Virus record (IMG/VR): IMGVR_UViG_3300000101_000006
Location: 62,001 to 126,000 of that record
From: a virus
Reading direction: 5' to 3' (one strand)
Length of the DNA: 64,000 nucleotides
The notes below the pieces were generated by a model. It had not been told where the DNA came from, did not search any database, and saw only the letters and a list, made by a program, of their open reading frames with translations. Shown piece by piece: positions 1,257 to 54,721 of this stretch (position 1 is its first letter; every line of letters starts with the position of its first letter). The translations under genes and the position numbers were made by a program.

Positions 1257-4200
1257 AAATCTTTTCGGAAAAACCGTAACAAGCTACAATGACGTAGCAG
1301 CAGATGTAGAATCAACTGACTTTATCGACGAAGTTGTTGCTAAAAGAGATACCTACTTACCACCAATCGACTTTTCTGATCCAAAGAACTTTGTATTCTA
1401 CGGCTCAGCAGAGCTTTACTATGAAGCAGCCATCAAGAGAATCTATGAAGACTATCCTTATGATGGATCAAAAGCCGAACAGATTGACTTTGAAGAGCGG
1501 TCATCATACTTGGAACGTTGGCTATACGACAACAAGTATCCAAAGACAACCGGGCATGTTGTGCTCGGAACTTCTGCTAACCTAACTGCAGCCACTGGCG
1601 ATTATTTAAACACAACAGTACCTGAGTACATCCGAGTCTGGGGTGGGTTGCATACCGATTCAACATCCAATGATTTGGATTATCAACTAGACAACTCTGC
1701 AAAGTATGACGCAGAAAATAACAGAACTCAAAATTTCAATTGCGACTTTGGAAACAAAGGTATTACTATCGAATTTTGGATGAAAAAGTCTACATACACC
1801 TCTACAAACAAAGAGGTCATCTTGGATCTTTCTAACGGCATCACTGGCCCAACACCAAGCCGCTCTAGGATACTTGTTGAGACTTTTGACGATGCCGGAA
1901 TTAAGAAGATGGCCATAACTATCGCCCAAGGCGCAGCATCTACAACTGTGACTTTTGCAATGGGCACCACTGAGACCGATTGGAACCATTATGCAATCTC
2001 AGTTGTAGATATCGCATCAGCCCAATCGTTGGCTAGATTTTACACAAATGGAGAAGAGTCATCATCACAATCCATCGCCGGACCATACGGAATCTTGGAA
2101 GGTAGATTAGACGGCTTCATTGGCGCACTTCAGGCTGCGTCACCGAACGGTGGTGGTGCAACCAATGGTGGTAAACTATCCGCCCAACTCGACGAGTTCC
2201 GCTTTTGGAAAACTCGAAGAACATCGAGACAAATCAAGCTCAACTGGTTCCGCGAAATTGGTGGTGGAGCAAACACTGACGACGCAACATCGGATTTGGG
2301 AGTATATCTCAAATTCAACGAAGGCATCACAGGGACAAGCTCAATTGACTCCAACGTTCTAGATTACTCAGGACGCTTGGCAAACGGAACTTGGATTGGC
2401 TACTCAAGCACAACGAGCGCAAGATCAACAGACTCCGCATTGACTGCTGCTGGCTACACAGAAAAGCCAAGTCCAATCATCTATTCAACCCACCCTTCCG
2501 TCACCGCTCTCGAAGCAGAGATGACCCTTAGTGGATCTGATTATGATTCTGGTAGAGGAGAGGCGTTCTATCGCTCTCTTCCAAATTGGCTTGTCGAAGA
2601 CGACAAGACCCTTGGAGACGAGAACTTAAGAAAGATTTCTCACATTATGTCAAGCTATATGGACACCTTGAAGGTTCAAATCGATTCACTCAGTAGTTTG
2701 CAAGATAAACAATATCTATCGTCTAGCTATAAATCATCCCCATTCTCCGAGGAGCTCTTGAAGGGCAAAGGGTTCACAACGAGTGAAATGTTTCTTTCAT
2801 CGGAAGTATTCGAGGCATTCTCAGACGTTGATTATGATGCTAGACAATTCGACCTCAATATTGATGAAATTAAGAATCTCATCTTCACAAACATTTACAA
2901 CAACCTCGAGAACATCTACAACTCAAAGGGAACTGAAAAGTCAATTAGAAACCTCATCCGATGCTTCGGTATTGATGATGAACTAATCAAACTAAACCAA
3001 TATACAGACAATGGAACGCAATATCTTGGAGACAAATATAGAACAACATCTGTAAAGAAGAAGTACATCAATCTTAATAGTGCAACCCTGTTTTCTGGGA
3101 CAATGTATCAAAGCGGCTCTAGAACATTCATTTCCGGCTCCAACAATGCCTCTGTAGCTGCGTTTACGATGGAAGCTGATATAGTAGTGCCCAACAAGAA
3201 AGAAATAGGAGAGAATGGATTCTTCGCAACACCATTCCTATCTGCATCCGTGATGGGTTTTCACGAGGCAATGCCGACCGATGCTTCGAACTTTACTTGG
3301 TGGGCAGATCAGCTTGCTGCAACTGCAGCTGCAACGGGTCAAATAACTCTCAATAGTACTGCCGCAGTATCAACGTGGGAAGGTGAAACGATAACATTGA
3401 CGTCCACCAGTGGAGTTACTAGAACTTATGAATTTACAGCAACAGGCACTGGAACCAGTGGTAACCTATTGCCCAATGGAAATATTGAGGTAGTAATAGG
3501 TGTGCTGTGGTTGACTACTAGGAATCTTCGTGATGCAATCAATTCCGTTAACGGACATGGCGCTACGATAACGGCAACATGGACAGCCGCTTCCCCAAAT
3601 TACAACATTGGACTAACGCAAGACCTATCCGGCGCAAACGGAAACACTATTATAACTTCGACATTTCCTCTGTCAATAATTACGATTACCAACTTCACCG
3701 GTGGAACTTCAACATTCAAAGAAGCTCGAGACCTCCAAGTCTATCTTGTTCGAGACTCAAGTGAGTCAAAGCATGGAAAGTTCGTAATAAAGAACCAAAC
3801 CGAAACAATCTATCAAGAGTCGGATTATGTCTATGATATTTACGAAGAAGAACACTACAATGTCGCTTTAAGAATTAAGCCTCAAACTTATCCGTACGCT
3901 GGTAACGTTACAAACATAACACCAGATTATGACATTGAACTATATGCAGTATCTCACAACTTCGACGAACTTAAGGAAGAAGTATTGGTCACAACAACTG
4001 TAGATAACGCCACGGGATCTGCCTATCTTCAAGCACCAAAGAGGATCTATGCAGCATCACATTACGAAAACTTCACAGGCTCCGTACTTCACAAGACTGA
4101 TTTGGAGTTTGGTAGAGTCTCTGCATGGCTTGACTACTTACCTAATAGCTCTATTCAAGAGCACAATAAAGATGTCTTAAACTATGGTAACTTTAAATCC

Positions 4201-15377: not shown

Positions 15378-17355
15378 AAATCTAAAAGACGCTGCCTTAG
15401 TATCCTCAGGCGTAGGACACGTCGTAGCTGAAACGGGCTATGGAACACAGAGGATTGAAGCACCTGTCAGTGTGAAAAAGTATAACGTAGAATTCCTTGA
15501 AAGTGAGATCAAGCACGACGAAGGGTTTCAATATGAAGTCGCAAAGATTAAAGTTAGTCCCATAATAACAATGTCCAACTTCTTTTCCAGCGTCAGAGCC
15601 GACTTCTCAAGTGGCCAAAAATCGAATCACTATTTTAAAATGCCCGAAATGGTAGATCTTGGAGAAACACATACTGAAAATTATTCGACTTCTAAGTCTC
15701 AAGGGTCTTATTCATTTGAAACAATATTCAATTACATATCAGAGGAGTATGACAAACTACAAGTCGGAATATCAGAATATAATCTCTATGCCCCATTTGA
15801 TAAGGCATCAAAGCAAGACTTCTTGAACATCCGAGACCGCAACACTGAGATAATAAACTTCTCGCGTGGAAACCAAATGAGGAACCTCGTAGTACCAACT
15901 ATGAAAGTCGATCAAGGATCAGATGAAACGCCTTATTATAATTATTTAAGAATTAATCAACGTTTAGATAATGGTATATCTCATTTCGCAATTAAACTCG
16001 GGATTTTTGATGAGCTGTTGCAAGACTATTTATTTGGTCGACGGACGAGTATATCTTTTGATATCCAAACAGGCCGAGAAGTCTCGCAAGATTCTTCCAT
16101 GTCCATCTATAACTTAGAGTCTTTTTTAACATCAGACACAGACTTGGACTTGGACAACTTTTTTACTCTCAATAGATCAATCCAGCCTTCTAGAATGTCT
16201 TTAGATTTGCGCAAGCACCTCATGAAGGGATTTCTCAAGGAGACCTCCAAGACAGGATTTAGGACTTATGAAGATATTCACAACAATATTGAGTCACACA
16301 AGGAAGTATTTTGTTATTCTGTAGATAAGTATGCAGCCACAGTTCAAGATAGTACAAAGATTCAAACGCTTTATGCACCAGCTCTTAGGGAGTCGACACC
16401 AGTTATCGACACTCAAGTCAAGTACGGAAAACACTATGCATACAAGGTGACTGGTCACTATATGATCGTAGGGAATAATTACGAGTACAGACAGATGATG
16501 TCCTCAAGTGACCCCGAGGACACATACTCGATCATTGAGGTGACGAATAGACCAAGCGTTGTTATTATTCCATTCCACATTTTCTCCAAACAAATCAATA
16601 TTGTACAAATGCCTCCGGTATATCCACAGGTATCATTCAAAACAGAGAATGATTCAAGCAAATCTATATCGATGTATCTTTCTCCGACAAAAACCGAAGT
16701 GATTGCTCCATTTATAAAGGTTACTCCTGATGACGATATACAATTGCGAGAATTAGAACGATTACCAAACATCCGAGAACCTGACGGGAAATTTAGATTT
16801 AAGACATATGGCGACCAAGGATTGTTCGAAGTTTTTAGGTTGGACTCTCCACCATCGTCGTTTTCTGACTTTAAGAATGCGAAGATTGGAGAAGTAAGTA
16901 TGCCTTTCAAAACTATGAGTGGTATCTTCAAAGATGTCGTTATTCCAAATAAAAAATATTATTATTTGTTCAGATCTATCAATCAAAAAGGACTGGTCTC
17001 AAATCCAACATCCATCTATGAAGCGACACTGTTGATAGATGCAGACGACTCTCAAGTCATAACAGATGTATATCATTTCCCAAAACCTAGAGATATGGAA
17101 TCAGCTCTTGGATTTAGAAAACTACTTAGAGTAACCCCTGCGGTGGAGCACATCTTGTTTGACGCTGCTCAAGACGCATTATTCGGAAAGAGAACTCTTG
17201 TTGGTACATTGGACGATTTAAAACTTGGAATTAGAGACAAGGCAGTGTGGGGTCGTAAATTCAAAATTCGAATCAAATCGAAAACTTCGGGAAAAATGAT
17301 AGACATTATTTTGAACGTTGATTTAACAAAAAACAAAACAGAGGAAGAATTCTAA
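15355..17355 (+). CDS. Virion-associated protein, unknown family (666 aa)
   Basis: ATG 15355 lies within the end of the previous gene and has GGAGGAAC 7 bases upstream. No family recognised. The central part looks beta-rich, and a region around residues 490-560 (FRFKTYGDQGLFEVFRLD to YYYLFRSINQKGLVSNP) reads like a fibronectin type III-like or Ig-like domain often found in phage tail proteins. The end is lysine-rich. Fits the tail/baseplate run; role otherwise unknown. Confidence 0.6.
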   Translation: MPKVVVTENLKDAALVSSGVGHVVAETGYGTQRIEAPVSVKKYNVEFLESEIKHDEGFQYEVAKIKVSPIITMSNFFSSVRADFSSGQKSNHYFKMPEMVDLGETHTENYSTSKSQGSYSFETIFNYISEEYDKLQVGISEYNLYAPFDKASKQDFLNIRDRNTEIINFSRGNQMRNLVVPTMKVDQGSDETPYYNYLRINQRLDNGISHFAIKLGIFDELLQDYLFGRRTSISFDIQTGREVSQDSSMSIYNLESFLTSDTDLDLDNFFTLNRSIQPSRMSLDLRKHLMKGFLKETSKTGFRTYEDIHNNIESHKEVFCYSVDKYAATVQDSTKIQTLYAPALRESTPVIDTQVKYGKHYAYKVTGHYMIVGNNYEYRQMMSSSDPEDTYSIIEVTNRPSVVIIPFHIFSKQINIVQMPPVYPQVSFKTENDSSKSISMYLSPTKTEVIAPFIKVTPDDDIQLRELERLPNIREPDGKFRFKTYGDQGLFEVFRLDSPPSSFSDFKNAKIGEVSMPFKTMSGIFKDVVIPNKKYYYLFRSINQKGLVSNPTSIYEATLLIDADDSQVITDVYHFPKPRDMESALGFRKLLRVTPAVEHILFDAAQDALFGKRTLVGTLDDLKLGIRDKAVWGRKFKIRIKSKTSGKMIDIILNVDLTKNKTEEEF

Positions 17356-17362
17356 TAAATAA

Positions 17363-17370
17363 GCTATTTA
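17363..17370 (+). promoter_or_regulatory. Putative late promoter core (GCTATTTA)
   Basis: CTATTTA preceded by G, 27 bases before ATG 17398, in a 42-base gap. A second T4-like element, AATAAATA, lies just upstream (17355-17362). Either or both could be the late-promoter core. Confidence 0.4.
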
Positions 17371-17397
17371 GGGTTTAGAATCGTAGGAGAAAATTTA

Positions 17398-18336
17398 ATG
17401 GGCTTTTTGGACAACAGTGGAGACATCATACTTGATGTAGTTTTGACGGACCACGGTCGAATGTTATTGGCGAAGGGAGACGGCTCCTTTCAAATCACTA
17501 AGTTTGCACTTAGTGACGAAGAGATCGACTATTCCTTATATGACAAGAACCACCCAAGTGGATCTGCATACTATGACTTAGAAATTCTTCAAGCTCCCAT
17601 TTTGGAAGCTTTTACAAACAACGGGTCAACTATGAAGACTCGCCTTCAAACTTATACAAATATGGAATTATTATTCCTTCCTGTGTTGAGATTGAATGAA
17701 AGAGTAAGCATCAACAAGCGAGCCTCAAACGGTGCATTTATGATACCAACCAATGCAGAAACGGAAGATAATTCTGGCTCAAGCACAGCATTAACTGGTA
17801 TTGGACGAAACACCGATGGCTCAATCCGTGAAGGATTCTTGTTTGGCGAATCTCTGGTCGGCACAATTATCAAAGTCGATGAAGGGTTGGATACAACTGA
17901 AATCTCTCCGATGCGTCGTCTTGATGACGAACTGAAAGAAACCAGTTACACAATCCAAATGGACAATAGACTTTGTAAGCTTGTAGACTCACAAGGCACA
18001 CTTGCTTCATTTGACTATTTAGACGACGACAACATCGCATATTATACTGTTGATTTAGGTGATACTTTCATAACAGACATTACCAACAACACAGTGAGCG
18101 CCTCTGAAGTAATTCAAGGTCCACGCGGAACTCGATTAGAATTCAGATTACAATCTTCAATGGATTTAAATACAAGTTCATATTTGTTTGAACAGTTGGG
18201 CGGCGAAGTATCGATGCCTACGCAGGTATCAGCAGTCAACGCTGATACTCTCTTTATTGATTCTAACATCAGAGTTGTCGGAGTTAAAACGGGAGTCATG
18301 ATGGACATCCCAGTAAGATTTTTAAGATTGAAATAA
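17398..18336 (+). CDS. Virion protein, N-terminal paralog of the 11509 product
   Basis: ATG 17398 with TAGGAGAA upstream. The first 50 residues match the product at 11509 in pattern (DVVLTDHGRMLLAKG versus KIELTPYGRSLLSNG), and total length is almost the same (312 versus 314), so the pair probably arose by duplication. The remainder is acidic and beta-rich. This type of protein occurs in tail regions of large marine phages as far as I recall, but no function can be named. It is followed after 13 bases by two further paralogs, forming a likely operon from the promoter motif at 17363. Confidence 0.65.
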   Translation: MGFLDNSGDIILDVVLTDHGRMLLAKGDGSFQITKFALSDEEIDYSLYDKNHPSGSAYYDLEILQAPILEAFTNNGSTMKTRLQTYTNMELLFLPVLRLNERVSINKRASNGAFMIPTNAETEDNSGSSTALTGIGRNTDGSIREGFLFGESLVGTIIKVDEGLDTTEISPMRRLDDELKETSYTIQMDNRLCKLVDSQGTLASFDYLDDDNIAYYTVDLGDTFITDITNNTVSASEVIQGPRGTRLEFRLQSSMDLNTSSYLFEQLGGEVSMPTQVSAVNADTLFIDSNIRVVGVKTGVMMDIPVRFLRLK

Positions 18337-18349
18337 TAAGGGAAAACAA

Positions 18350-19438
18350 ATGACTTTCAAACCATTAAACGAAAATGATACAGTAAACACTAGAACGCTT
18401 CTTCATGAAGCAATCCCTTTAACCGGTGCGATTGTTAGTGGCACATACGGCACAAACAACATCAAAACATACTCACATGGAATGTTTGAGTCTGTCTATG
18501 ATTATCCATATCTTAGCTCCTCAGCGAATCACATTTTTGATCTTACAGCTGGATTGCACCCTGATGGACCCTTAGCTTCCACTGATACGCAATTTACAAA
18601 GAAGCGCAACATTTATAATCAAATGTCTCAAGTTCTAATGGGTTATGATGCAACCGGATCCATTCAAAAGTTTGACGAAGACGGCGATCTCTTAGCAGGT
18701 GGGGCAAAGATGCAAGAAGTAATCGTTATGCCTTTCTCGAGATTACTAACGAAAGATGAGATCAAGAAAGAGAGTTTCGAATTGACTCTTGGAATCAACA
18801 ATGGTTATGGCTCAGCAATGAATACTTTAATTACAATTTCTGATGTTAGCGCCTCAAATGAATACAGAGTAAATTCACCTGTCGGTGATTATGGTATCCT
18901 ATACGCTACAGCTTCAGCTGGTACTGATCTCTTAAACTTAGCAGCATCGAATACGCATACAGCATCAATCGGCGGCGTTAAGTATTGGAATGCTGGATTG
19001 ATTTTTTACCAAGCCGGAATTGTGGTCTTGACTGGCTCTATCTTTGGAACTCAACTAAAATCAACATTCACTCCAGCAATGGATAGCGCAGGTATTTTGA
19101 TTGACGAACTAATGACTGGTTCAACGATTGACCAGATATCGGATGCATTTCGACACAGAGTGTACAATATGCAATTCAACAACACAACCGAACTAAACTC
19201 AACTGTTTACTTTTGTCGCATCAATCACAATGAGTTCAACTACTCTTCGAACCCAACTTACTTGAGCGGCTCGAGAATTCAAGTTAAAAACCAAGCAACT
19301 GACGAACCGGTTGCATATATCACCACAGTTGGTCTCTACAACGACAACAATGAATTGCTAGCAACCGCTAAACTTTCAGAACCATTGAAGAAATCATCAA
19401 GCAACGAATTTACAATCCGCACACGATTGGACTACTAA
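18350..19438 (+). CDS. Tail-fibre-like virion protein, first of a paralogous pair
   Basis: ATG 18350 preceded by AAGGGAAAA. It pairs with the product at 19452: both have mid-protein segments of the form IVVLTGSIFG/IIVLTGSTPLG, an FNHxxxSNNPTYL-like segment (NEFNYSSNPTYLSG versus GELNHSNNPTYLKY), and the same ending pattern (ATAKLSEPLKK..NEF versus GICKLATPIRK..NEY). No catalytic motifs. Probably two subunits of one tail-fibre or baseplate structure made by gene duplication; specific role unknown. Confidence 0.65.
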   Translation: MTFKPLNENDTVNTRTLLHEAIPLTGAIVSGTYGTNNIKTYSHGMFESVYDYPYLSSSANHIFDLTAGLHPDGPLASTDTQFTKKRNIYNQMSQVLMGYDATGSIQKFDEDGDLLAGGAKMQEVIVMPFSRLLTKDEIKKESFELTLGINNGYGSAMNTLITISDVSASNEYRVNSPVGDYGILYATASAGTDLLNLAASNTHTASIGGVKYWNAGLIFYQAGIVVLTGSIFGTQLKSTFTPAMDSAGILIDELMTGSTIDQISDAFRHRVYNMQFNNTTELNSTVYFCRINHNEFNYSSNPTYLSGSRIQVKNQATDEPVAYITTVGLYNDNNELLATAKLSEPLKKSSSNEFTIRTRLDY

Positions 19439-21781: not shown

Positions 21782-22126
21782 ATGAAACTTACAAAAGAAA
21801 CTTTAAAAAGAATTATTAAAGAAGAATTGGAAGCAACTTTGAATGAAGTGGGAGAAAACCTTGATCCACGCGTCAAGAAAATAGAAGCAGCCACCGGCGG
21901 CATTTTTGAGGCAGGCAAGGGCTCAGCCCACGTCCAAAGCGTAATGAATGCGAAGGGCTTAGGCACATTTCTGGCTGAGTTTGACGACGGCGAAGACACG
22001 TTCGTTTATTTGTTTGACGCCGGCAACGGAATGGTAAAGTTTGAACAAGACGGAAAAGCAACAAAAGAAATGACACCAGAACAAGCGGGTCAATATCTTA
22101 AGACACAATCGTCTCATCATTTTTAA
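21782..22126 (+). CDS. Small protein with putative capsid-targeting leader (copy 1)
   Basis: A protein of 114 residues whose first 15 (MKLTKETLKRIIKEE) are identical to those of the products at 24819 and 32857, while the rest is unrelated. The leader is basic and amphipathic, followed by an acidic run, like the leader of T4 internal proteins; IKE fits the [IL]xE cleavage rule of gp21-type proteases. The remaining body (from about residue 25) is acidic at its middle (FDDGEDTFVYLFDAGNG), with a predicted beta hairpin, no known domain. Ribosome site GGAGAA. I infer a virion-packaged cargo protein; alternatively the leader could be a shared regulatory or binding helix. Confidence 0.7.
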   Translation: MKLTKETLKRIIKEELEATLNEVGENLDPRVKKIEAATGGIFEAGKGSAHVQSVMNAKGLGTFLAEFDDGEDTFVYLFDAGNGMVKFEQDGKATKEMTPEQAGQYLKTQSSHHF

Positions 22127-24818: not shown

Positions 24819-25130
24819 ATGAAACTTACAAAAGAAACACTAAAAAGAATCATCAAAGAAGAGATGATGCAAGTTATGCATGAAATGGATTCCAACTCAC
24901 CACCATTGCATCCGGATTTAGAATCATTGCAAAAAGCACTTGAAACTTCAGGCCGATTTAAAATCGAACCAGACCAGAGAAATCCAGAAGAATTATCTAT
25001 CGAAACAGAAACTGACGAATGGACTGCTTCCGTGGACCCAGCTGGTGACCTAATTTTGGACTTCGACAACAGCAATAGCGAACAAATAGTTGGTAAAGAC
25101 GAAGCGCTTAAGTTTTTATTAAATCTATAA
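24819..25130 (+). CDS. Small protein with putative capsid-targeting leader (copy 2)
   Basis: 103 residues. The first 15 residues equal the leader of copies 1 and 4 (MKLTKETLKRIIKEE), followed by MMQVMHEMDS. The body is acidic and unlike the other copies (a short proline-containing loop NSPPLHPDLES, then two predicted strands WTASVDPAGDLILDF). No known domain. Ribosome site AGGAGTCC. A late-type promoter motif precedes it although it lies among early genes, which supports packaging of the product into the head. Function of the body unknown. Confidence 0.7.
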   Translation: MKLTKETLKRIIKEEMMQVMHEMDSNSPPLHPDLESLQKALETSGRFKIEPDQRNPEELSIETETDEWTASVDPAGDLILDFDNSNSEQIVGKDEALKFLLNL

Positions 25131-31160: not shown

Positions 31161-31575
31161 ATTAAAAAGAATGACTCAAAAGATAGTCGACATGGTTTGT
31201 CCAAAACCAACACAAGATCTAGAGCTGAATACAAGAAATAGAGACTCGGCAATCAAAGCTGAGCATATTAAGTACGGTCCTTTGAATGTCGATGATCCCG
31301 GAGACTATTGGAATGAAATAGCAGAACACTGGGATACAGACGTGGATGCAGCAAAGAAGTCGCTTTGTGGGAATTGTGTTGCTTTCGATATAAGCCCCAG
31401 AATGGATGAGTGTATGCCCGGCACAACATCTGATGATGATGGACGACTTGGCTACTGTTGGATGCACAATTTTAAGTGTCACTCCGCTCGTAGCTGCTAT
31501 ACGTGGGCAAAAGGTGGACCTATCGAAGAAGATAAGGTTTCTTATGATTGGCAAAAACGAGGTGAAAGTGAATAA
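31147..31575 (+). CDS. Cysteine-rich protein, possible metal or Fe-S cluster binder
   Basis: 142 residues. The C-terminal half has a regular cysteine pattern: LCGNCVAFD, DECMPG, GYCWMHNFKCHSARSCYTW, ending in KGGP. Seven cysteines plus one or two histidines in about 50 residues suggest a metal or iron-sulfur site, comparable with high-potential iron-sulfur-like phage proteins. No enzyme motif. ATG 31147 overlaps the upstream gene by 14 bases; ATG 31171 is an alternative start. Common next to terminase genes in marine phages as far as I recall; function unknown. Confidence 0.6.
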   Translation: MIRIRLKRMTQKIVDMVCPKPTQDLELNTRNRDSAIKAEHIKYGPLNVDDPGDYWNEIAEHWDTDVDAAKKSLCGNCVAFDISPRMDECMPGTTSDDDGRLGYCWMHNFKCHSARSCYTWAKGGPIEEDKVSYDWQKRGESE

Positions 31576-31939
31576 GAAAGATCCAAATTATGCTGTGAAG
31601 GTTGAGAAAGCCATCGCAGAGAAATATGGCAAAGAAGCCATAGTAAATCCCAAGTCAGAATGGGACGATGATAAAGAAAAAGAGTATCTAGCTGAACTAA
31701 AGAATAACTATCGCAATGATAAATCGGAAAGCGAAAGAGTTGAGCTTGGTGGAGTTTTAATATCAAAAGAACTACTTAATAAAGAATCCAAGCGTTCATG
31801 TCCAACCTGCAACACTTATTCATTCAAATCCGTTGATGACTTGTACATGACGAAATTTGATTGTTGCTACAAATGTTACATCCAATGGATAGAAGGTCGG
31901 GAAGAAAGATGGAAAAAAGGTTGGAGACCAAACAAATGA
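31568..31939 (+). CDS. Zinc-ribbon protein (123 aa), GTG start
   Basis: GTG 31568 is preferred: it has GAGGTG just upstream and overlaps the previous stop; the frame's earlier methionines lie inside the upstream gene. The C-terminal 50 residues form a zinc ribbon, SCPTCNTYSF and FDCCYKCYIQWIEG, followed by a basic tail WKKGWRPNK. The N-terminal half is charged and helical. Sits two genes before cargo-like genes and three before the terminase; DNA or RNA binding is plausible, function unknown. Confidence 0.6.
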   Translation: MNKKDPNYAVKVEKAIAEKYGKEAIVNPKSEWDDDKEKEYLAELKNNYRNDKSESERVELGGVLISKELLNKESKRSCPTCNTYSFKSVDDLYMTKFDCCYKCYIQWIEGREERWKKGWRPNK

Positions 31940-32496
31940 GCAAAGAAACATTAGAAATTATTAGAGGACTTTCCCAAGCAGCAGCCAACGGTTCATACGA
32001 TGGCGGCCAGCATATGGAAAACTACTCACACGACGGACAAGTTCGAAAGACAGGGCTTATGCGAGAAGAAGGAATTCCTCTTCTTGACAAGCGAGTCATC
32101 GACGGCTTCAAGGTCAAGTTCTATGGGGACTCAATGATTATCAATTATCAATCCGATGTTATGATGAGAGATTTAAAGGATGATGGATTCGAAAATGAAA
32201 TCGTAAGAACATTGAACGAAGTCAAGAAGTTCTTGCAAAAAGAATATAAGACAATCACCGGTAAATCAGTATCTTTGTCTGCTAAAGGTGATCCACAAAT
32301 TATCGTACAAACAACGTCTAGAGTTCGTACATTTGTGCAAGCATATCAACACTATAAGATTGGTGGCTTGAAGATGGATCAAATCAATGCGCCATCAGAA
32401 ACCAACACTCGAGACATCACAAAGAAATTCTTAGAGACCGCAAAAGCAAAGCGCCCTCAAAATGAAAAGATCAACCCAAAGGATAATCAGAAATGA
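31936..32496 (+). CDS. Hypothetical protein upstream of terminase (186 aa)
   Basis: ATG 31936 overlaps the previous stop. The protein has a flexible start (GSYDGGQHMENYSHDGQVRK), an alpha/beta middle (VIDGFKVKFYGDSMIINYQ; FVQAYQHYKIGGLKMDQIN), and a basic C-terminus ending KINPKDNQK. The last nine codons and stop are repeated 360 bases downstream in the micro-ORF at 32786, so the 3' end of this gene marks a duplication boundary. No family recognised; position between accessory genes and terminase suggests head assembly or packaging. Confidence 0.6.
   Translation: MSKETLEIIRGLSQAAANGSYDGGQHMENYSHDGQVRKTGLMREEGIPLLDKRVIDGFKVKFYGDSMIINYQSDVMMRDLKDDGFENEIVRTLNEVKKFLQKEYKTITGKSVSLSAKGDPQIIVQTTSRVRTFVQAYQHYKIGGLKMDQINAPSETNTRDITKKFLETAKAKRPQNEKINPKDNQK
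32472..32496 (+). repeat. Direct repeat, copy A (end of 31936 gene)
   Basis: The sequence CAACCCAAAGGATAATCAGA and the following AATGA at the 3' end of the gene reappear, apart from the first base, at 32836-32860. Both copies run directly into a MKLTKETLK-type gene. Confidence 0.85.
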
Positions 32497-32786
32497 AACT
32501 CACGAAAGAAACATTAAAGCAAATCATCAAAGAAGAGATGGAAGCTGCTCTGGAAGAGGGTGAATTTAAATCTCCAACATTTCAAGCAAAAGTGGATGCT
32601 GAGAGAAATAAAGATGCTATTGAACCTCTAGTCAACAAATATCAGACTGATCAAGATTATAAAGCTCCTCAGTATATTGATGACATCATGAGCGTTGCTC
32701 CTCAAATTACTCGTGAGCAAGCTATTGCCATAGCAGAATTGTTCTCTAGTGAAGTTGGAATGGAAGACGAATACTATAGTAAGTAA
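32493..32786 (+). CDS. Small protein with putative capsid-targeting leader (copy 3)
   Basis: 97 residues beginning MKLTKETLKQIIKEEMEAALEE, one change (R to Q) from the other leaders. After the leader the protein is an acidic helical body (SPTFQAKVDAERNKDAIEP; ITREQAIAIAELFSSEVG) unlike copies 1, 2 and 4. The [IL]xE rule for gp21-type proteases is met at IKE and again at ALEE. ATG overlaps the upstream stop and its TAA overlaps the micro-ORF at 32786. Two genes upstream of the terminase, thus beside the head genes, consistent with a packaged internal protein. Body function unknown. Confidence 0.7.
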   Translation: MKLTKETLKQIIKEEMEAALEEGEFKSPTFQAKVDAERNKDAIEPLVNKYQTDQDYKAPQYIDDIMSVAPQITREQAIAIAELFSSEVGMEDEYYSK

Positions 32787-32860
32787 TGAAACTCACCAAA
32801 AATGAAATTCTTAGAACTCTCAAAACGAAAAAAATTAACCCAAAGGATAATCAGAAATGA
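32786..32860 (+). pseudogene. Chimeric micro-ORF, recombination scar between cargo genes
   Basis: A 24-codon frame. Its first 23 bases (ATG to AAAAATGAAAT) are identical to the start of the terminase gene at 33222, giving MKLTKNEI; its last nine codons, KINPKDNQK plus stop, equal the end of the gene at 31936. It is therefore a fusion of a terminase start and a 31936 end, exactly what a tandem duplication of [31936 end, cargo gene, terminase start] would leave. It may be translated through coupling (ATG overlaps the upstream TAA) but is unlikely to be functional. Confidence 0.85.
32836..32860 (+). repeat. Direct repeat, copy B (end of micro-ORF)
   Basis: Second copy of the 24-base repeat that ends the gene at 31936, again running into a MKLTKETLK-type start codon at 32857. 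Confidence 0.85.
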
Positions 32861-33213
32861 AACTAACGAAAGAAACATTGAAGCGCATCATCAAAGAAGA
32901 GATGGAAGCTGTTATGGAATATAACAGAGAGCTCGTTGGCGGCGACTCCAGTCTGGATCGGATTGAAGGAATCAAGACTACACTATCTAAAGTTAACTTT
33001 ACCAGCGACCCAGATGATCAGTTCATGTATAAACTGGCCAAGCAGCTTGGAGATAATCAATACGTCATGATGCCTGATCGTGGAGATGGATTTCTCTTCG
33101 TCAAAGGACCAGATGGAACTCTTTTGTTTGCTGCGAATCATCGTAACAAACAACGCGCCACGGAAGCTCAAAAGGAATTGGAAGCAAAAGGATACAAAAA
33201 AGTAGACTTATAA
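32857..33213 (+). CDS. Small protein with putative capsid-targeting leader (copy 4)
   Basis: 118 residues: leader MKLTKETLKRIIKEEMEAVME, then a mixed alpha/beta body (GIKTTLSKVNFTSDPDDQFM; VMMPDRGDGFLFVKGPDGTLLF; a C-terminal helix RATEAQKELEAKGYKKVDL). The body resembles none of the other copies. Overlaps the micro-ORF stop by four bases and ends 8 bases before the terminase start. Upstream boundary and downstream boundary match those of copy 3, so the two payloads occupy equivalent, duplicated slots. Confidence 0.7.
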   Translation: MKLTKETLKRIIKEEMEAVMEYNRELVGGDSSLDRIEGIKTTLSKVNFTSDPDDQFMYKLAKQLGDNQYVMMPDRGDGFLFVKGPDGTLLFAANHRNKQRATEAQKELEAKGYKKVDL

Positions 33214-33221
33214 GAGGCTAG

Positions 33222-34799
33222 ATGAAACTCACCAAAAATGAAATCGTTAAAGAACTTGTAAAATGCGGAAAAGACCCTCAATATTTTATTGATAACTACT
33301 GCAAGATCTCCCATCCAATGCATGGGCAAATTCCTTTTAAGACTTATGACTATCAAAAGGACATGCTCAAGAACTTTAACGATTATCGTTTTAACGTAAT
33401 ACTAAAAGCAAGACAGCTTGGGATCTCAACCATCTCGGCTGCTTATGTTGCTTGGTTCATGCTGTTTCATCGAGAAAAGAATGTTCTCGTTATCGCAACG
33501 AAACTATCCACAGCGGTAAACCTCGTAAAGAAGGTCAAAATGATCTTCAAGAACCTTCCGTCTTGGATGATGATCGCGAAAATTGCTACAGACAACAAGC
33601 AATCATTCGAGTTGACAAACGGCTCTCAAGTAAAGGCTGGAACCACATCAGGCGATGCTGGTCGTTCAGAAGCCCTGTCGCTTCTCATTATAGACGAGGC
33701 AGCGTTCGTTGATGGCCTCGAAGAGCTTTGGACGGGTCTTTACCCTACTTTGTCTACAGGGGGCCGCTGTATCGCTCTGAGCACCCCTAACGGCGTTGGA
33801 AACTGGTTTCACAAGTCCTACACTGAAGCTGAGAATGAGATGAATGATTTCTTTCCCACAAAGTTAATGTGGGATGTCCACCCAGAAAGAGACGAAGAGT
33901 GGTTCTCAAAAGAGACGCGAAATATGTCCAAGAGACAAATAGCGCAGGAGCTTGAATGTTCATTTAATGCATCAGGCGAAACAGTTATCAACCCTGAAGA
34001 TTTACAGAGGATAAGCCACTTAGTTAAAGACCCAGTCTATAGAGCTGGGTATGATAGAAATTATTGGATTTGGGAAAAACACCAAGAAGGCATTCCCTAT
34101 TTGTTAGTAGCGGACGTTGCCCGCGGCGATGGTGCAGACTTTAGTTGTTTCCACATTGTGAGAATCGACAACATGACCGTGGTCGCTGAATATCAGGGCA
34201 AGCCAGACTTGGATATGTATGCCGATATTTTATATTCTGCAGGAAATGAATACGGCAGTTGTCTATTGGTAGTTGAAAATAACGGCATCGGCATTGCTGT
34301 ATTGGAGAAGCTTAAGGACCTTGACTATAAGAAACTTTACTATTCTATCAAATCAACACATGATTATGTCGAGTCCTATCTAGCCGAAAATGACGACAGA
34401 GCCGTACTTGGCTTTACAACATCAACCAAGACAAGACCCTTAATCGTAGCTAAATTGGAAGAATACGTTAGAAACAAACTAATTAATATACACTCCAATC
34501 GTGTTTTTCACGAACTAAAAACTTTTATTTGGCACAACGGAAAGCCTCAAGCTATGCGCTCTTACAATGATGATTTGGTTATGTCCCTCGCAATTGCATG
34601 TTGGGTACGCGACACGGCCCTCTCAGAAAACGAAAGAGATATGGCTTACAAAAAGGCAATGATCGGTGGTTTGATGAAGTCTACAACGACTATGAACACT
34701 CAAATCAAGGGCCAAAAGATCTATAAAGAAACGTTCGAGCAGAAATACGAGGAGGAGATAGAAAAAGCAAAAAACTTTTTGTGGATATACAAAGGATAA
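33222..34799 (+). CDS. terL: Large terminase subunit, DNA packaging ATPase/nuclease (gp17-like)
   Basis: 525 residues. ATPase: Walker A-type KARQLGIST near 62-70 and Walker B LLIIDEAAF near 156. Nuclease: ADVARGDGADF near 296, VVENNGIG near 348, and SYNDDLVMSLAIA near 446, which supply the acidic RNase H-fold residues that cut concatemers. The protein docks on the portal and pumps DNA into proheads. Somewhat shorter than T4 gp17 (610). ATG has AAGAGG upstream. Start of the head operon: portal follows after 3 bases. The small terminase subunit is not identifiable nearby; one of the unknown genes upstream could serve. Confidence 0.97.
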   Translation: MKLTKNEIVKELVKCGKDPQYFIDNYCKISHPMHGQIPFKTYDYQKDMLKNFNDYRFNVILKARQLGISTISAAYVAWFMLFHREKNVLVIATKLSTAVNLVKKVKMIFKNLPSWMMIAKIATDNKQSFELTNGSQVKAGTTSGDAGRSEALSLLIIDEAAFVDGLEELWTGLYPTLSTGGRCIALSTPNGVGNWFHKSYTEAENEMNDFFPTKLMWDVHPERDEEWFSKETRNMSKRQIAQELECSFNASGETVINPEDLQRISHLVKDPVYRAGYDRNYWIWEKHQEGIPYLLVADVARGDGADFSCFHIVRIDNMTVVAEYQGKPDLDMYADILYSAGNEYGSCLLVVENNGIGIAVLEKLKDLDYKKLYYSIKSTHDYVESYLAENDDRAVLGFTTSTKTRPLIVAKLEEYVRNKLINIHSNRVFHELKTFIWHNGKPQAMRSYNDDLVMSLAIACWVRDTALSENERDMAYKKAMIGGLMKSTTTMNTQIKGQKIYKETFEQKYEEEIEKAKNFLWIYKG

Positions 34800-34802
34800 A
34801 AA

Positions 34803-36743
34803 ATGGCTCGCAACGAAAGAAACCCGAACAACAATCAAAACGACTTGTTCAAAGCTCTAACAAGAATGTTCTCTGGACCTATAACTCAGAGAAGAACCCA
34901 ATCAGGTAGACAATTAAGGCGGCGGCATTTAGATAATTACGCAAAAAGATTTAGAACCGCATCAGGTCAACAATTCAAAAAGACTGAATATAATCCAATG
35001 AACGTCATGGCCTTGAACATGATTACAAATAGAAATCGTACTGAGCGATATGTTGACTTTGACCAAATGGAATTTACACCAGAGATCGCATCATCTCTTG
35101 ATATCTATGCAGACGAGATGACAACCCACTCGGCTCTAACTCCAATGTTGCACATTAAGTGTCCGAATGATGAAATTAAATACATCCTTCATGCACTATA
35201 TTATAATGTAATGAACATCGAACACAACCTCTTTGGTTGGGCAAGAACCATGTGCAAGTACGGAGACATGTTTTTATACTTGGATCTAGACGAAGAGAAG
35301 GGTCTGCAAAACTGCATTGGACTTCCTCCACAAGAAGTTGAAAGACTTGAGGGTGAAGATCCAACAAACCCAAATTATGTCCAGTTCCAATGGAACTCAG
35401 CAGGTTTGACTCTAGAGAATTGGCAAATGGCCCACTTTCGAGTCCTTGGAAACGACAAGCATGCTCCATACGGAACATCAGCTTTAGAGCCCTCTAGACG
35501 CATCTGGAGACAACTTACGCTTCTCGAAGACGCAATGATGGCCTATCGCATTACTCGATCACCAGAGCGACGTGTGTTTAAGATTGATGTTGGCGGTATC
35601 GCACCACAAGATGTGGAAGGATACATGCAAAAAGTTATGACACAAATGAAGCGACACCAAGTTGTGGACCCCACCTCGGGCCGTGTAGACTTGCGTTATA
35701 ATCCACTATCAATTGAGGAAGATTACTTCATTCCCGTCAAAGGCGGACAATCATCTACAAACATTGAGAACCTACCCGGTGGTGCATTCACAGCACAAAT
35801 CGAAGACGTTAAGTATCTTCGAGACAAATTGTTCTCGGCATTGAAAGTTCCACAATCTTATCTTTCAATGGGAGATGGTGCTAGTACCGAAGACAAGACA
35901 ACACTCGCACAGAAAGACATTAGGTTCGCAAGAACAATTCAGAGACTACAGAGAGTCTTGATTACTGAACTTGAGAAGATCGGAATCATCCATCTTTATA
36001 CTCTCGGCTATCGTGGCGATGACCTGCTAGGCTTTAAACTATCTCTCAATAATCCATCAAAAATCGCAGAGATGCAAGAGCTTGAACACTGGAAGACTAA
36101 GTTTGATATCGCCGGAGCAGCAACTGAGGGATACTTTTCTCGTCGTTGGGTTTCAGAAAATCTGCTTGGATTATCACAAGATGAATATTTGCGAATGCAA
36201 AGAGAAATGTTCTCAGACAAGAAGTTCATGGCTGGTCTTGAGGCCGCCGCTTCTGCACCAGAAGGCGGTGACGCCGGTGGTGGTGACCTTGGAGGAGATC
36301 TTGGAGGAGACCTAGGTGGTGATTTAGGTGGTGATTTAGGTGGTGATGATGCCGGAGGAGATCTTGGCGGAGACACAGGTGGAGATACAGGCGGAGACAC
36401 AGGTGGAGATACAGGTGGAGATGAACCAGACCTATTGGCTGAACCTCCAGCTAAGCGTGACGACGACGCAAAACCTCGAGGCAAATACAAAAGACACAAA
36501 TCTTCTTATCGCAAAGGCGGCTTCTCAAAGCAAATGAAGAACCAAGCCTTTAGCGGCGAAGTTCGTGGATCAACCTCCAGAACAACATTTCCCGGAAAAG
36601 TCGGCTTCGGCGGATTGGATTCTCTAGCTAGAGGGATTTACGAATCAAATGAAAACGAAGAAGAGAAACTATTTAACACAAGTAGTGAGATGAAATCACT
36701 AATTGAATCATTGAACAAAAAGGAAAATACAGATGAAACATAA
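34803..36743 (+). CDS. 20: Portal protein (gp20-like) with Gly-Asp repeat insert
   Basis: 646 residues versus 524 in T4. It forms the dodecameric ring at the packaging vertex and nucleates head assembly. Recognisable gp20-type segments: VDFDQMEFTPEIASSLDIYA, FSALKVPQSYLSMGDG, LAQKDIRFARTIQRLQR, and ISNLV-like C-terminal part around MQELEHWKTKFDIAGAA. Residues about 486-541 are a low-complexity run of GGDLGGD and GGDTGGD units, followed by a basic stretch and a glycine-rich tail. Located directly after terL (3-base gap) with the next gene overlapping its end by 11 bases. Confidence 0.93.
   Translation: MARNERNPNNNQNDLFKALTRMFSGPITQRRTQSGRQLRRRHLDNYAKRFRTASGQQFKKTEYNPMNVMALNMITNRNRTERYVDFDQMEFTPEIASSLDIYADEMTTHSALTPMLHIKCPNDEIKYILHALYYNVMNIEHNLFGWARTMCKYGDMFLYLDLDEEKGLQNCIGLPPQEVERLEGEDPTNPNYVQFQWNSAGLTLENWQMAHFRVLGNDKHAPYGTSALEPSRRIWRQLTLLEDAMMAYRITRSPERRVFKIDVGGIAPQDVEGYMQKVMTQMKRHQVVDPTSGRVDLRYNPLSIEEDYFIPVKGGQSSTNIENLPGGAFTAQIEDVKYLRDKLFSALKVPQSYLSMGDGASTEDKTTLAQKDIRFARTIQRLQRVLITELEKIGIIHLYTLGYRGDDLLGFKLSLNNPSKIAEMQELEHWKTKFDIAGAATEGYFSRRWVSENLLGLSQDEYLRMQREMFSDKKFMAGLEAAASAPEGGDAGGGDLGGDLGGDLGGDLGGDLGGDDAGGDLGGDTGGDTGGDTGGDTGGDEPDLLAEPPAKRDDDAKPRGKYKRHKSSYRKGGFSKQMKNQAFSGEVRGSTSRTTFPGKVGFGGLDSLARGIYESNENEEEKLFNTSSEMKSLIESLNKKENTDET
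36262..36423 (+). repeat. Gly-Asp tandem repeats within the portal gene
   Basis: About ten imperfect 12- to 15-base units encode GGDLGGD-type repeats, first with leucine and then with threonine (GGDTGGDTGGD). Synonymous changes between units (ggaggagac, ggtggtgat) show it is old enough to diverge. Its copy number probably varies between relatives. Confidence 0.9.
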
Positions 36744-37548: not shown

Positions 37549-38116
37549 TATTAATGTGGTAGATAATGAAGAACAGGTTGACCCAGTAGATACTCCGGAT
37601 GATGGGATTACCATCAATGTTGTTGAAAAAGATAGAATTGAAGCAAAATTAAAACTTCGATCCTCCATCAATGGCGACTTGATGATTATGGACCACAAAG
37701 ACATTGATATCGTAATAAAGCAAAATGATAAGAAAGTCGTGGCTTTTGCGAAAGAAACTTTATCCGATCTTGTCTATGGTGCCGAATCTAGATTGTTCGA
37801 ATACTTGAGACAGAATGGTTTGATAGAAATAGATTCAATCCAAGGCGGTAACATTTATGGTTCGCTTGAGGCTAAGTTACAAGAAGGCGAAAAGGTTGTG
37901 GAGATTACAATAATGAAGATAGCCGAGTGGATGGAAGGCGAAGAGCCCATGACCACAGGACGAACTGGATATGACGATATGCAAGATGACCATTTGTTAG
38001 AACCAGATGGGGAATATTCTACAGAACTTGGAGAGGTACCAGCAGCCGAAAGAAAGGGTTCGATGAACCAGAGTCCTCTTTTCGCACCATACATGTATGG
38101 GAGATATGCATACTAA
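37538..38116 (+). CDS. Hypothetical head-operon protein (192 aa)
   Basis: ATG 37538 has GCGGAGGT upstream and overlaps the previous gene by 11 bases. The N-terminus contains a duplicated short strand motif (ISINVVDNEE then ITINVVEKDR). The middle (DLMIMDHKDIDIVIKQNDK; ESRLFEYLRQNGLIEIDSI) looks alpha/beta; the C-terminus is acidic with a tyrosine-rich end (YMYGRYAY). Function unknown; genomic position suggests head assembly. Confidence 0.6.
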   Translation: MSISINVVDNEEQVDPVDTPDDGITINVVEKDRIEAKLKLRSSINGDLMIMDHKDIDIVIKQNDKKVVAFAKETLSDLVYGAESRLFEYLRQNGLIEIDSIQGGNIYGSLEAKLQEGEKVVEITIMKIAEWMEGEEPMTTGRTGYDDMQDDHLLEPDGEYSTELGEVPAAERKGSMNQSPLFAPYMYGRYAY

Positions 38117-38850
38117 TGAATCAAAAGCTTATCATGGAAAATTGGAGACGCTTTCTCAAAGAAGAAAAAAAGAGAGGCATCCGCCTAGGTGATGAAGTTG
38201 TCTGCCTGAGAGCAGAGATTAGTCCCAAAAGCGATGCAGAGTTCACACTCTATACTCCAGGAACTGGAACAGAAACAGCCGAGAAGATCGCAGGATTAGA
38301 AATAATTGGCCAAATAAACATATCAAGTCTTAAAAGTAGTGGACCATGCCTGACGGCAGATGGGAAGAAACCATCTTGGCACGTAGAAGCAATCCACACA
38401 GCAGAGAAGTATAGAAACGTCGGCTACGGTGGTCTGCTTTATGGGTTTGCATTTTATGTAGCAAAGAATGATAACGCCGGTCTCACATCAGACAAAGACT
38501 CGGGATCAAAAGAAGACGCTGTTATCAAGTGGAATTCATTCGAGAAGAATACTCAAACGTTTGATAAGGTAACGACTCCTGCTGGTAACGATACTTTTGA
38601 CTATGATAGTACAACTCCAGATCCAGACGATGATTGTGACGTATTGGTTGGCGATGAAGAAAATGCTACCGACTTTAGTTTCGACCACAAGAATCCCCAA
38701 ATCTACGAACAGTCAATGGCGACCTACGAAGGGAACCACATGGAATTCCTTGATGAGGTAGTTGACTCTGGTTTTATGAGCGAGAGAGAGTTCAATAAGT
38801 TTTTGGACCAAGCCGCTTTCAAGAGCTTTGCAATCGAATACGACGGCTAA
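38116..38850 (+). CDS. GNAT-like acetyltransferase with putative capsid-targeting leader
   Basis: 244 residues. After a basic helical leader (MNQKLIMENWRRFLKEE, with LKE fitting the gp21 cleavage rule) comes a GNAT-type core: WHVEAIHTAEKYRNVGYG near 88-103, where RNVGYG fits the RxxGxG acetyl-CoA loop, followed by the helix LLYGFAFYVAKNDN. The C-terminal third is acidic (PDPDDDCD). It lies between portal and protease genes, where T4-like phages often keep prohead core or internal proteins. I infer an acetyltransferase packaged in the head and injected, similar in concept to T4 Alt. Start overlaps the previous TAA. Confidence 0.65.
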   Translation: MNQKLIMENWRRFLKEEKKRGIRLGDEVVCLRAEISPKSDAEFTLYTPGTGTETAEKIAGLEIIGQINISSLKSSGPCLTADGKKPSWHVEAIHTAEKYRNVGYGGLLYGFAFYVAKNDNAGLTSDKDSGSKEDAVIKWNSFEKNTQTFDKVTTPAGNDTFDYDSTTPDPDDDCDVLVGDEENATDFSFDHKNPQIYEQSMATYEGNHMEFLDEVVDSGFMSEREFNKFLDQAAFKSFAIEYDG

Positions 38851-39297: not shown

Positions 39298-39310
39298 ATT
39301 GGAGAGAAGA

Positions 39311-39934
39311 ATGAGTAAACAATTATTAAGAGAGTTCCATGCACTATGCCCCGATGGTCGATGCTTGGATCTTCTAACAGAAAGAGAAAAGAAAGAAGTT
39401 GTCGAAGAAGGCGTGGTCTACTTGACTGGACGTATTCAGACAGCAGACAAAAAGAATGGTAACGGTCGCAAGTATCCACACAAAGTTCTCAAGAGAGAGA
39501 TGGATAACTACATGGCCATCGTTAAAGACAACCGAGCGTGTGGTGAATTAGATCACCCTGACGACTCCGTAATTAACCTTAAGAACGTTTCTCACATGGT
39601 CACCGACTGTTGGTGGGAAGGCAAGGACGTAATGGGCAAGATCAAGGTCCTAGACACTCCTAGTGGTAGAATCCTGAAGGATCTCATCAATGCTGGTGTG
39701 AAACTTGGGATATCATCACGAGGACTTGGATCGGTTCGAGAATCAATGGGATCAACAATTGTTGAAGAAGACTTTCAACTAATTTGTTTTGATATCGTAT
39801 CAGAACCATCAACCCCAGATGCTTATGTTTATCCGGGCGAAAGCTCTAGAAAGCCAACTAGATTCTCGACAAAGTTGCGAGAACAAAAAGAAAACAATAT
39901 TGACAATCTATTTAAAAAGATTCTTGGAGATTAA
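39311..39934 (+). CDS. 21: Prohead core protease (gp21-like)
   Basis: ATG 39311 follows TTGGAGAG. 207 residues, close to T4 gp21 (212). The herpesvirus-type serine protease signature is visible: His about 81 in GELDHPDD and Ser about 135 in GISSRGLG, with an N-terminal VYLTGRIQTADKKNGNGR strand region. The enzyme sits in the prohead core and cuts scaffold, capsid and internal proteins after [IL]xE. Within this phage the leaders MKLTKETLKRIIKEE and MNQKLIMENWRRFLKEE and the capsid segment ELLRE all fit that rule, which supports their being its substrates. Confidence 0.93.
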   Translation: MSKQLLREFHALCPDGRCLDLLTEREKKEVVEEGVVYLTGRIQTADKKNGNGRKYPHKVLKREMDNYMAIVKDNRACGELDHPDDSVINLKNVSHMVTDCWWEGKDVMGKIKVLDTPSGRILKDLINAGVKLGISSRGLGSVRESMGSTIVEEDFQLICFDIVSEPSTPDAYVYPGESSRKPTRFSTKLREQKENNIDNLFKKILGD

Positions 39935-52930: not shown

Positions 52931-54721
52931 ATGTCTATTATCGAAACTCTAACAGAAGGTATCGTCAACCGCGATATGCAAAAAGAAGGTGCTGCTCTGT
53001 TAAACAAATGGTCACAAACTGGTCTTTTAGAAGGCTTGTCTGATGATAACCAAAAAGCTTCAATGGCTCGTCTATTGGAGAATCAAGCTCGCGAATTATT
53101 GCGTGAGTCTAACACAATGGCTGGTGGATCTGTCGAAGGTTTTGCTGCTGTTGCATTCCCAATCGTTCGTCGTGTATTCGCTGGATTGATTGCGAACGAC
53201 TTGGTTTCTGTACAACCAATGTCTCTTCCAAGTGGATTGATTTTCTTCTTGGACTTCACATTCAACAGCTCTCGTCTTGGAAATACAGCGACCGAATCAA
53301 TCTACGGTACTGACCGTGTTGGTTCTGAAGTAACTGGTGGTGTTAACTTGGTTGACGCACGAGGAATTTCTGAAGGCTCTGGTCCTCTTCGTGCTGGTGC
53401 AACTGGTTATGCTTACGCATCTCCAACTGGATCTAACGCAGAAATCATCGTTGCTTCTATGAAAGTACACGCTGCTTTCAACTTGGACGGCACCGTCCCA
53501 GATCGTGCAGCAAAAGCTATTAGATTTGATGCTGATCTTCTTAACATCACAGATGGTACTGGTATCATTGTTGTTGATGTGAAAAACAGTGTAATCAAAG
53601 ACTCAACGACATCCAACTCACCAGCAGACTTTGATAATCTTTCTGCTTTTGTATGGGCTATTACACAAGCAACAGTTGAAACTCAAGCAAACACTGCATT
53701 GACTCAACTTCGTCGTTTGACTTCAAAAGTTAAAGCCAACGCCACCGCATTGGGCGAAACTGCTACTAGATTCGTATTCACTCAAACCGCAGGCGCCAGC
53801 TTGGATGCTGAAGTTACCTCTGATACAGCACCGGCAGCAGTTTCCGCAGCAGGGGCCCTTAAGTTCCCAATGATTGATAATATTGCTGCATCGTCAACCC
53901 CTGGTGGGATCATTGGACAACAATTGTGGGGACTTGAAAACAATGTTGATATCCCTGAGATCGACATCAAGGTAGACTCAATCGCTATTACAGCACAAAC
54001 CAAGAAGTTGAAAGCAAAGTGGACTCCAGAATTGGGTCAAGACTTGAACGCTTACCACAACTTGGATGCTGAAGTAGAATTGACTTCTATCCTTTCTGAG
54101 CAAATCGCTCTTGAATTGGATCGTGAAATCTTGGCTGACCTTGTAAACGGCGCAACTGCTGCGACTTACTACTGGTCTCGTTCACCTGGTTTGTTTGTAA
54201 ACCGTGAAACTGGTGCTGAGCTTGGCGCAACTTCTGCTGCTCCTGACTTCACTGGTACTGTTTCTGAATGGTATGAAACTTTGATCGAAACTATCAACGA
54301 CGTTTCTGCACAAATCCATCGTAAGACTTTGCGTGGTGGTGCTAACTTCTGTGTCGTAGGACCTGAAGTTGCGAACGTTTTGGAATTCACTGCTGGTTTC
54401 CGTGCGAACGTTACTGCTGACGCTGACAAAGGCGACATCGGTGCTGTTAAGGTTGGTTCTTTGAACCGTAAGTTCGACGTTATCGTTGATCCTTACTTCC
54501 CACGTAACGCAATCTTGGTTGGTCGTAAAGGTTCTTCTTTCTTGGAAAGTGGATATGTTTACGCTCCATATGTACCATTGCAAACAACTCCTACCATCTT
54601 TGGACCTGAAGACTTCGTTCCTCGCAAAGGTGTTATGACTCGTTACGGTAAGAAAATGGTTCGTCCTGACATGTACGGTCTTGTTATCGTTCGTGGATTA
54701 GCAGGCGAGTCTGGATCCTAA
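52931..54721 (+). CDS. 23: Major capsid protein (gp23-like)
   Basis: 596 residues versus 521 in T4. The N-terminus is the typical gp23 start, with ARLLENQARELLRESNT (about 46-62) followed by EGFAAVAFPIVRRVFAGLI and SLPSGLIFFLDF. LRE at 57-59 fits the gp21 cleavage rule and is the probable maturation site. The C-terminus shows the usual GRKGSSFLESGYVYAPYVPL. Codons are strongly biased to GCT, CGT and GGT, in keeping with the most abundant virion protein. AAGGAG ribosome site and a strong terminator behind. Confidence 0.96.
   Translation: MSIIETLTEGIVNRDMQKEGAALLNKWSQTGLLEGLSDDNQKASMARLLENQARELLRESNTMAGGSVEGFAAVAFPIVRRVFAGLIANDLVSVQPMSLPSGLIFFLDFTFNSSRLGNTATESIYGTDRVGSEVTGGVNLVDARGISEGSGPLRAGATGYAYASPTGSNAEIIVASMKVHAAFNLDGTVPDRAAKAIRFDADLLNITDGTGIIVVDVKNSVIKDSTTSNSPADFDNLSAFVWAITQATVETQANTALTQLRRLTSKVKANATALGETATRFVFTQTAGASLDAEVTSDTAPAAVSAAGALKFPMIDNIAASSTPGGIIGQQLWGLENNVDIPEIDIKVDSIAITAQTKKLKAKWTPELGQDLNAYHNLDAEVELTSILSEQIALELDREILADLVNGATAATYYWSRSPGLFVNRETGAELGATSAAPDFTGTVSEWYETLIETINDVSAQIHRKTLRGGANFCVVGPEVANVLEFTAGFRANVTADADKGDIGAVKVGSLNRKFDVIVDPYFPRNAILVGRKGSSFLESGYVYAPYVPLQTTPTIFGPEDFVPRKGVMTRYGKKMVRPDMYGLVIVRGLAGESGS

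Follow-up and report, generated by a model that had tools for sequence, protein, structure and literature searches.

Organization of the locus

The window, a stretch of 64,000 nucleotides covering positions 62001-126000 of a 127,431-base virus record, derives from an uncultured and probably marine phage of T4-like type. Its T4-type genes include those for the terminase large subunit (terL), the portal, a head protease and the capsid protein; the genes listed in this paragraph are all on the plus strand. A conserved gene with a product ending in GWRPNK (31568..31939) precedes a second conserved gene encoding 186 aa (31936..32496), here called the 31936 gene, to which no function is assigned and which has no PHROG or Pfam match. 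Two small genes sharing an N-terminal leader, cargo 1 (97 aa, 32493..32786) and cargo 2 (118 aa, 32857..33213), separate the 31936 gene from terL (33222..34799). The start of cargo 1 overlaps the stop of the 31936 gene and a 75-nt micro-ORF, MKLTKNEILRTLKTKKINPKDNQK (32786..32860), lies between the two cargos. Downstream are genes for a portal of T4 gp20 type (34803..36743), a T4 gp21-type head maturation protease (39299..39934; phrog_207, E=1.3e-59) and the major capsid protein (52931..54721; phrog_138). Two more leader-bearing genes, encoding 114 and 103 aa, are found at 21782..22126 and 24819..25130.

In the window and its relatives most leader genes occupy one of three positions: upstream of the 31936 gene (site U), upstream of terL (site T) or directly downstream of the portal gene (site P). 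Site T is bounded on the left by the last ~45 nt of the 31936 gene, which include a Shine-Dalgarno-like AAAGGAT, and on the right by the terL ribosome-binding region (GAGG.., 33213..33221) and terL start. In relatives the 3′ end of the 31568 gene, GGTTGGAGACCAAACAA, is the left border of site U, and site P, +3464 to +4462 relative to the start of terL, holds up to three leader genes in tandem. The portal gene of one relative, L027, ends with codons for KKDNQK, much as the 31936 gene does. At its own start the 31936 gene has ATGAGCAAAGAAACATTAGAAATT (MSKETLEII), with AAAGAAACATTA in common with the leader, and it may be descended from a leader gene.

Relatives identified by terL gave 80 loci, and the 31936 gene was found in 69 loci, the window included. 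Scored by leader pattern, the interval between the 31936 gene and terL holds no leader gene in 22 of the 69, one in 37, two in nine and three in one. Eighteen of the 22 are truly empty, with 7-20 bases between the flanking genes; L017 and L040 have a Cys-rich mini-ORF only, L062 has a leader gene that the pattern missed and L045 is also counted here. The loci include near-duplicate contigs (L006/L007/L074, L011/L012, L036/L038, L055/L056 and L063/L064), so that these counts do not equal independent lineages. Across about 90 loci the leader genes form 62 body clusters. The sequence-only reading had described a cargo-swapping site and predicted that related phages would carry variable numbers and types of leader genes between the same flanks. 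Both statements agree with the occupancy of zero to three and with the exchange of cassettes among relatives documented below.

The Cys-rich mini-ORF (72 nt, about MNNLEEKCCGNCCPCCSCECCEE) is often seen at site T, alone as above or, in L021, L025, L029, L041 and L055, ahead of the first cargo and after the homologue of the 31936 gene; its product looks like a small metal-binding peptide. Four more distant relatives recognized by their capsid protein (G001-G004, 106-187 kb, which hold L102, L120, L149 and L166) each give 5-9 matches, with E values of up to 1, to a profile of leader genes, so that the leader extends past the terL group.

The leader peptide

The leader has the consensus MKLTKETLK[QR]IIKEELEAVMNE (MKLTKETLK[QR]IIKEELxxVMxE), 22 residues in length, and conservation ends at residue 22. 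Of 60 bodies, 45 have the motif [LIMV]-x-E at residue 22 and nine have it at residue 21 (54 together), against a frequency of 0-10% at each position from 23 to 41. In cargo 1, where the 22 leader codons span 32493..32558, the motif is LEE/G. It resembles T4 prohead-protease sites, a match in sequence only, and the gp21-type enzyme encoded in the window would be the protease expected to remove the leader. An invariant I-K-E at leader residues 12-14 provides a second possible cut site. In the capsid protein L-L-[R/K]-E is invariant in 78 sequences, precedes mostly S, A or N and a gap-prone stretch, and lies where a capsid cut is expected; the candidate site in the window is LLRE59/S60. The residue after E22 of the leader is instead E in 13 of 49 cases.

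Over codons 2-15 the leader has a pN/pS of 0.17 with a pS of 0.53, and over codons 16-22 a pN/pS of 0.57, values drawn from pairs that are not independent. Since the leader is conserved as protein, its first role is a protein function. An AF2 model of cargo 1 (pLDDT 81, with 65-75 around the leader and linker) displays a leader helix at residues 5-22, a short linker and a body starting at residue 28. The model of cargo 2, with pLDDT 50, was left unused. We consider it likely that the leader is a capsid-targeting propeptide.

A second N-terminal tag, (K)LIMENWRRFLKEE, is present at 38116-38850 in the window and on 16 ORFs of related loci, attached to several unrelated bodies. It has an aromatic-x-x-F-[IL]-x-E pattern resembling that of the T4 CTS.

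The leader peptide, too short a query, had no match by tblastn in 50,697 phage records, and neither the interval DNA, the 31936 gene nor a post-portal cargo matched phages. Pfam searches with 59 cargo bodies returned single weak matches, taken as noise; the bodies have no recognizable domain, and so none that tests a defence-blocking role. The structure of cargo 1 had no PDB match at E<0.001, terL had none among bacterial and archaeal genomes in a host search, and leader strings in the literature gave unrelated matches only. Among isolates, Microcystis phage Mel-JY01 had no leader match and Flavobacterium phage immuto one weak match (E 0.096). In immuto (L091; features at 3154-3912, 13544-14626, 14626-15207 and 16862-18472) there is a leader-like start, MKKSQLRQIIKEALDA, as well as a protein containing HFIAEAR; motifs of the form [L/I/V]-x-E occur near the starts of the protease (LLTE/S) and capsid protein (IVSE/A). 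Leader-like proteins of the immuto phages include immuto136C_190. This phage would be a good system for virion proteomics.

The scar and the origin of two cargos

The micro-ORF is a composite. As the sequence-only reading had noted, 23 bases at its 5′ end are identical to the start of terL at 33222 and its 3′ end, AACCCAAAGGATAATCAGAAATGA, is identical to the final 24 bases of the 31936 gene. The resemblance goes further on both sides. Positions 32786-32818 align to terL with 89-91% identity, exactly so over 32786-32808, whilst 32819-32860 match the final ~41 nt of the 31936 gene; BLASTN places the join near 32818/32819. Two repeat pairs result, one of 28 nt (32786 versus 33222, 93%) and one of 91 nt (32465-32555 versus 32829-32919, 91%), the longer pair extending through the leader. 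From the join onward 32819-33298 forms an unbroken alignment with L031, 94.6% identical over 480 nt (BLASTN). The exact join can be read as terL to 32818 followed by CTCAAAACG of the 31936 gene, or as terL to GAAAT followed by the 31936-gene TCTTAGA with ~17 nt lost later; the order of parts is the same in both cases. What the two parts of the junction have in common is not the leader but a short match of the AAAATGAAA/GAAAT type, linking terL with the 3′ end of the 31936 gene; the match comprises ~5-9 bases, and the junction has mutated since. The scar also provides cargo 2 with a ribosome-binding-like AAAGGAT immediately before the leader ATG. This could explain why the 31936-gene piece persists at site T.

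The linker between the cargos scores 33 against 31936-gene ends and 30 against terL starts. The maxima from 200 shuffles were 21 and 18, and the 60 nt upstream of 73 leader genes at other sites scored at most 17 and 18, respectively. The scar therefore exceeds what chance would give.

Similar remnants recur. A second, independent terL/31936-gene scar was found by a pattern scan of IMG/VR in L036 and L038, near-identical contigs from two samples, and the hybrid junctions there and in the window share a few bases at non-allelic sites through AAAATGAAA/GAAAT-type matches, a feature of short-homology unequal crossover. The 31936-gene end is present in the inter-cargo linkers of the window, L036, L049, L028 and L032 (scores 28-35) and the terL start in those of the window (30) and L036 (27). 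The L049 linker has a decayed terL start with a score of 17, the level of the shuffle maximum. At site U the two cargos of L006 are separated by a repeat of the 3′ end of the gene that precedes this site (25 against a shuffle maximum of 16), and such remnants also lie in front of the 31936 gene in L044 and L040. Among the multi-cargo loci, L067, L029 and L020 show no remnant and L051 only a weak one.

Each cargo occurs singly at site T elsewhere. A homologue of cargo 1 (76% aa identity) is present in L071 and cargo 2 is present in L030 and L031; when the two bodies were searched with individually, the collection gave no further examples. Between the window and L031 the cargo 2 body shares 95.1% DNA identity (terL 81.3%, 31936 gene 80.8%), far above that of the flanks, from which we conclude that cargo 2 was transferred horizontally. 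With L071, in contrast, the window shares 73% DNA identity in cargo 1 and 77-80% in the flanks, so that cargo 1 shows no such excess. Cargo 1 has therefore probably occupied the site for longer, and cargo 2 was gained recently. At this identity of cargo 1 L071 is a distant stand-in for the putative cargo 1 parent. The locus nearest to the window by terL and the 31936 gene, L006 (88%), has a different cargo. Such transfer is also evident in a cassette of body cluster 2 common to L006, L028 and L049, 94-96% identical where the flanks are 70-82%. The identities are 95.9% for L006-L028 (terL 82.1, 31936 gene 69.8), 94.8% for L006-L049 (78.9, 76.6) and 94.4% for L028-L049 (79.7, 71.1).

If cargo 2 came from an L031-like donor, the switch back to recipient terL must lie within the first ~600 nt of that gene. 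There the window and L031 are about 91% identical against a mean of about 84%, an excess that is suggestive only as the region is conserved in all pairs. In relatives the first 600 nt of terL are 80-89% identical in pairs, and 71-75% at 600-1200. One microhomology-mediated unequal crossover and one ordinary crossover would account for the arrangement in the window, and the unrelated bodies are explained in a single step because each single-cargo allele exists in a relative.

Interpretation and comparison with T4 systems

How might such a locus work? A cassette consists of a leader-tagged small gene between the 31936 gene and terL, with its ribosome-binding site held in the last codons of the 31936 gene. 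Co-infecting relatives would swap cassettes, and an occasional illegitimate crossover, at the few bases common to the start of terL in one genome and the end of the 31936 gene in another, would set a second cassette beside the first. In the window this would have left the chimeric micro-ORF, an ancestor with cargo 1 having probably acquired cargo 2 from an L031-like phage before the recipient terL was brought back by another, ordinary crossover within the first ~600 nt of the gene. The leader would carry its cargo into the prohead, where the gp21-type protease would cut after E22 (or E21/E14), and the cargo would then be injected with the DNA, as are T4 internal proteins, perhaps to act against host defences. 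We infer the packaging, cleavage, injection and anti-defence role of the cargos. We hold the recombination part of the explanation with considerable confidence and judge the whole, namely that this T4-like phage has a hypervariable locus for cargos with a capsid-targeting propeptide as leader, to be probable.

Other origins for the two cargos deserve attention. The sequence-only reading, which took the scar for the trace of a tandem duplication of one cargo with the payload exchanged during or after it, fits the fact that the cargo flanks repeat one another, and horizontal cassette exchange is clear enough to make a later replacement possible. Its recognition of a recombination scar stands, as an unequal crossover between a terL start and a 31936-gene end. 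The duplication of one cargo is unneeded, with single-cargo alleles for each payload in L071, L030 and L031. It calls for two events where one is enough, and body clustering found no site-T locus with two copies of one cargo cluster; we regard it as improbable. The record is metagenome-assembled, which raises the prospect that the chimeric segment is an artefact, but the junction homology is too short for an assembler join, the segment has diverged from both of its sources, and the equivalent, independent junction in L036 and L038 comes from two other samples. On the strength of those similar junctions an artefact was rejected as scarcely credible.

The leader can also be viewed in other ways. 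It might be some other shared N-terminal helix that is never removed, docking for example onto a scaffold, tail or replication component. The AF2 model gives a plain helix and the leader genes at 21782 and 24819 are near replication genes, away from the head module, which speaks for such docking; against this, 90% of bodies have a protease-type motif where the conserved stretch stops, and leader genes are found repeatedly next to terL and portal. We consider a docking helix doubtful. That the leader acts as recombination homology, as had also been proposed, is plausible, its near-identical DNA being repeated at several sites, but the match at the junction involves terL and the 31936-gene end. 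It is very improbable that the leader is maintained chiefly for its DNA homology, or as a promoter-like element for recombination, with synonymous changes common and amino-acid changes rare, and a role as DNA only was rejected on the pN/pS value.

The capsid-targeting propeptide remains our preferred reading of the leader, and a broader suggestion can be built on it, albeit tentatively. The ribosome-binding tail and leader could together form a portable 5′ adaptor, such that small genes recombined behind it at three docking sites (before the 31936 gene, before terL and after portal) become capsid cargo. This phage group might then draw on a large common pool of injected proteins that is reshuffled by recombination; most would be of unknown type, and they would probably act against defences. 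Should the leader prove to be a capsid-targeting tag, it offers a sequence handle for injected phage proteins in uncultured viruses. The scars reveal natural array building, crossover by crossover, and that in the window lets the direction of gain, cargo 2 beside cargo 1, be read in a single genome.

The T4 internal proteins provide the closest comparison. They carry N-terminal targeting propeptides of 10-19 residues, which are removed by gp21 cleavage after L/I-x-E (PMC9026906). Ip1, Ip2 and Ip3 each block one particular GmrSD restriction enzyme (PMC12373910), and variable ip loci are described in T-even phages (Repoila 1994, as cited in PMC12373910). Like IPI, IPII and IPIII, the leader genes join unrelated small bodies to a common short N-terminal tag, occur several to a genome and vary between relatives, and the same genome encodes a gp21-type protease with L/I-x-E specificity. 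Unlike them, the leader in the window has 22 residues, its main form is by eye dissimilar to the T4 CTS in sequence, and the arrays adjoin terL, the 31936 gene and portal.

T4 also recombines at homologies of 2-10 bp, including around genes 16-18, which hold the terminase gene, to yield tandem amplifications (PMC9391042; for genes 16-18, Wu 1991 on Hp17 mutants, as cited there). The scar is similarly the product of an unequal crossover at few common bases near the terminase gene that gives a tandem arrangement; here two different alleles, and hence two different cargos, were joined in a natural virus.

T4-type phages are reportedly also subject to modular shuffling by mobile cassettes of promoters and stem-loops. 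Short common flanks that permit accessory-gene exchange are a shared feature, whereas the 5′ element of the group described here is a ribosome-binding site and protein-coding leader rather than a promoter. The locus appears to work like a T4 internal-protein locus, and we provisionally assign it to that system.
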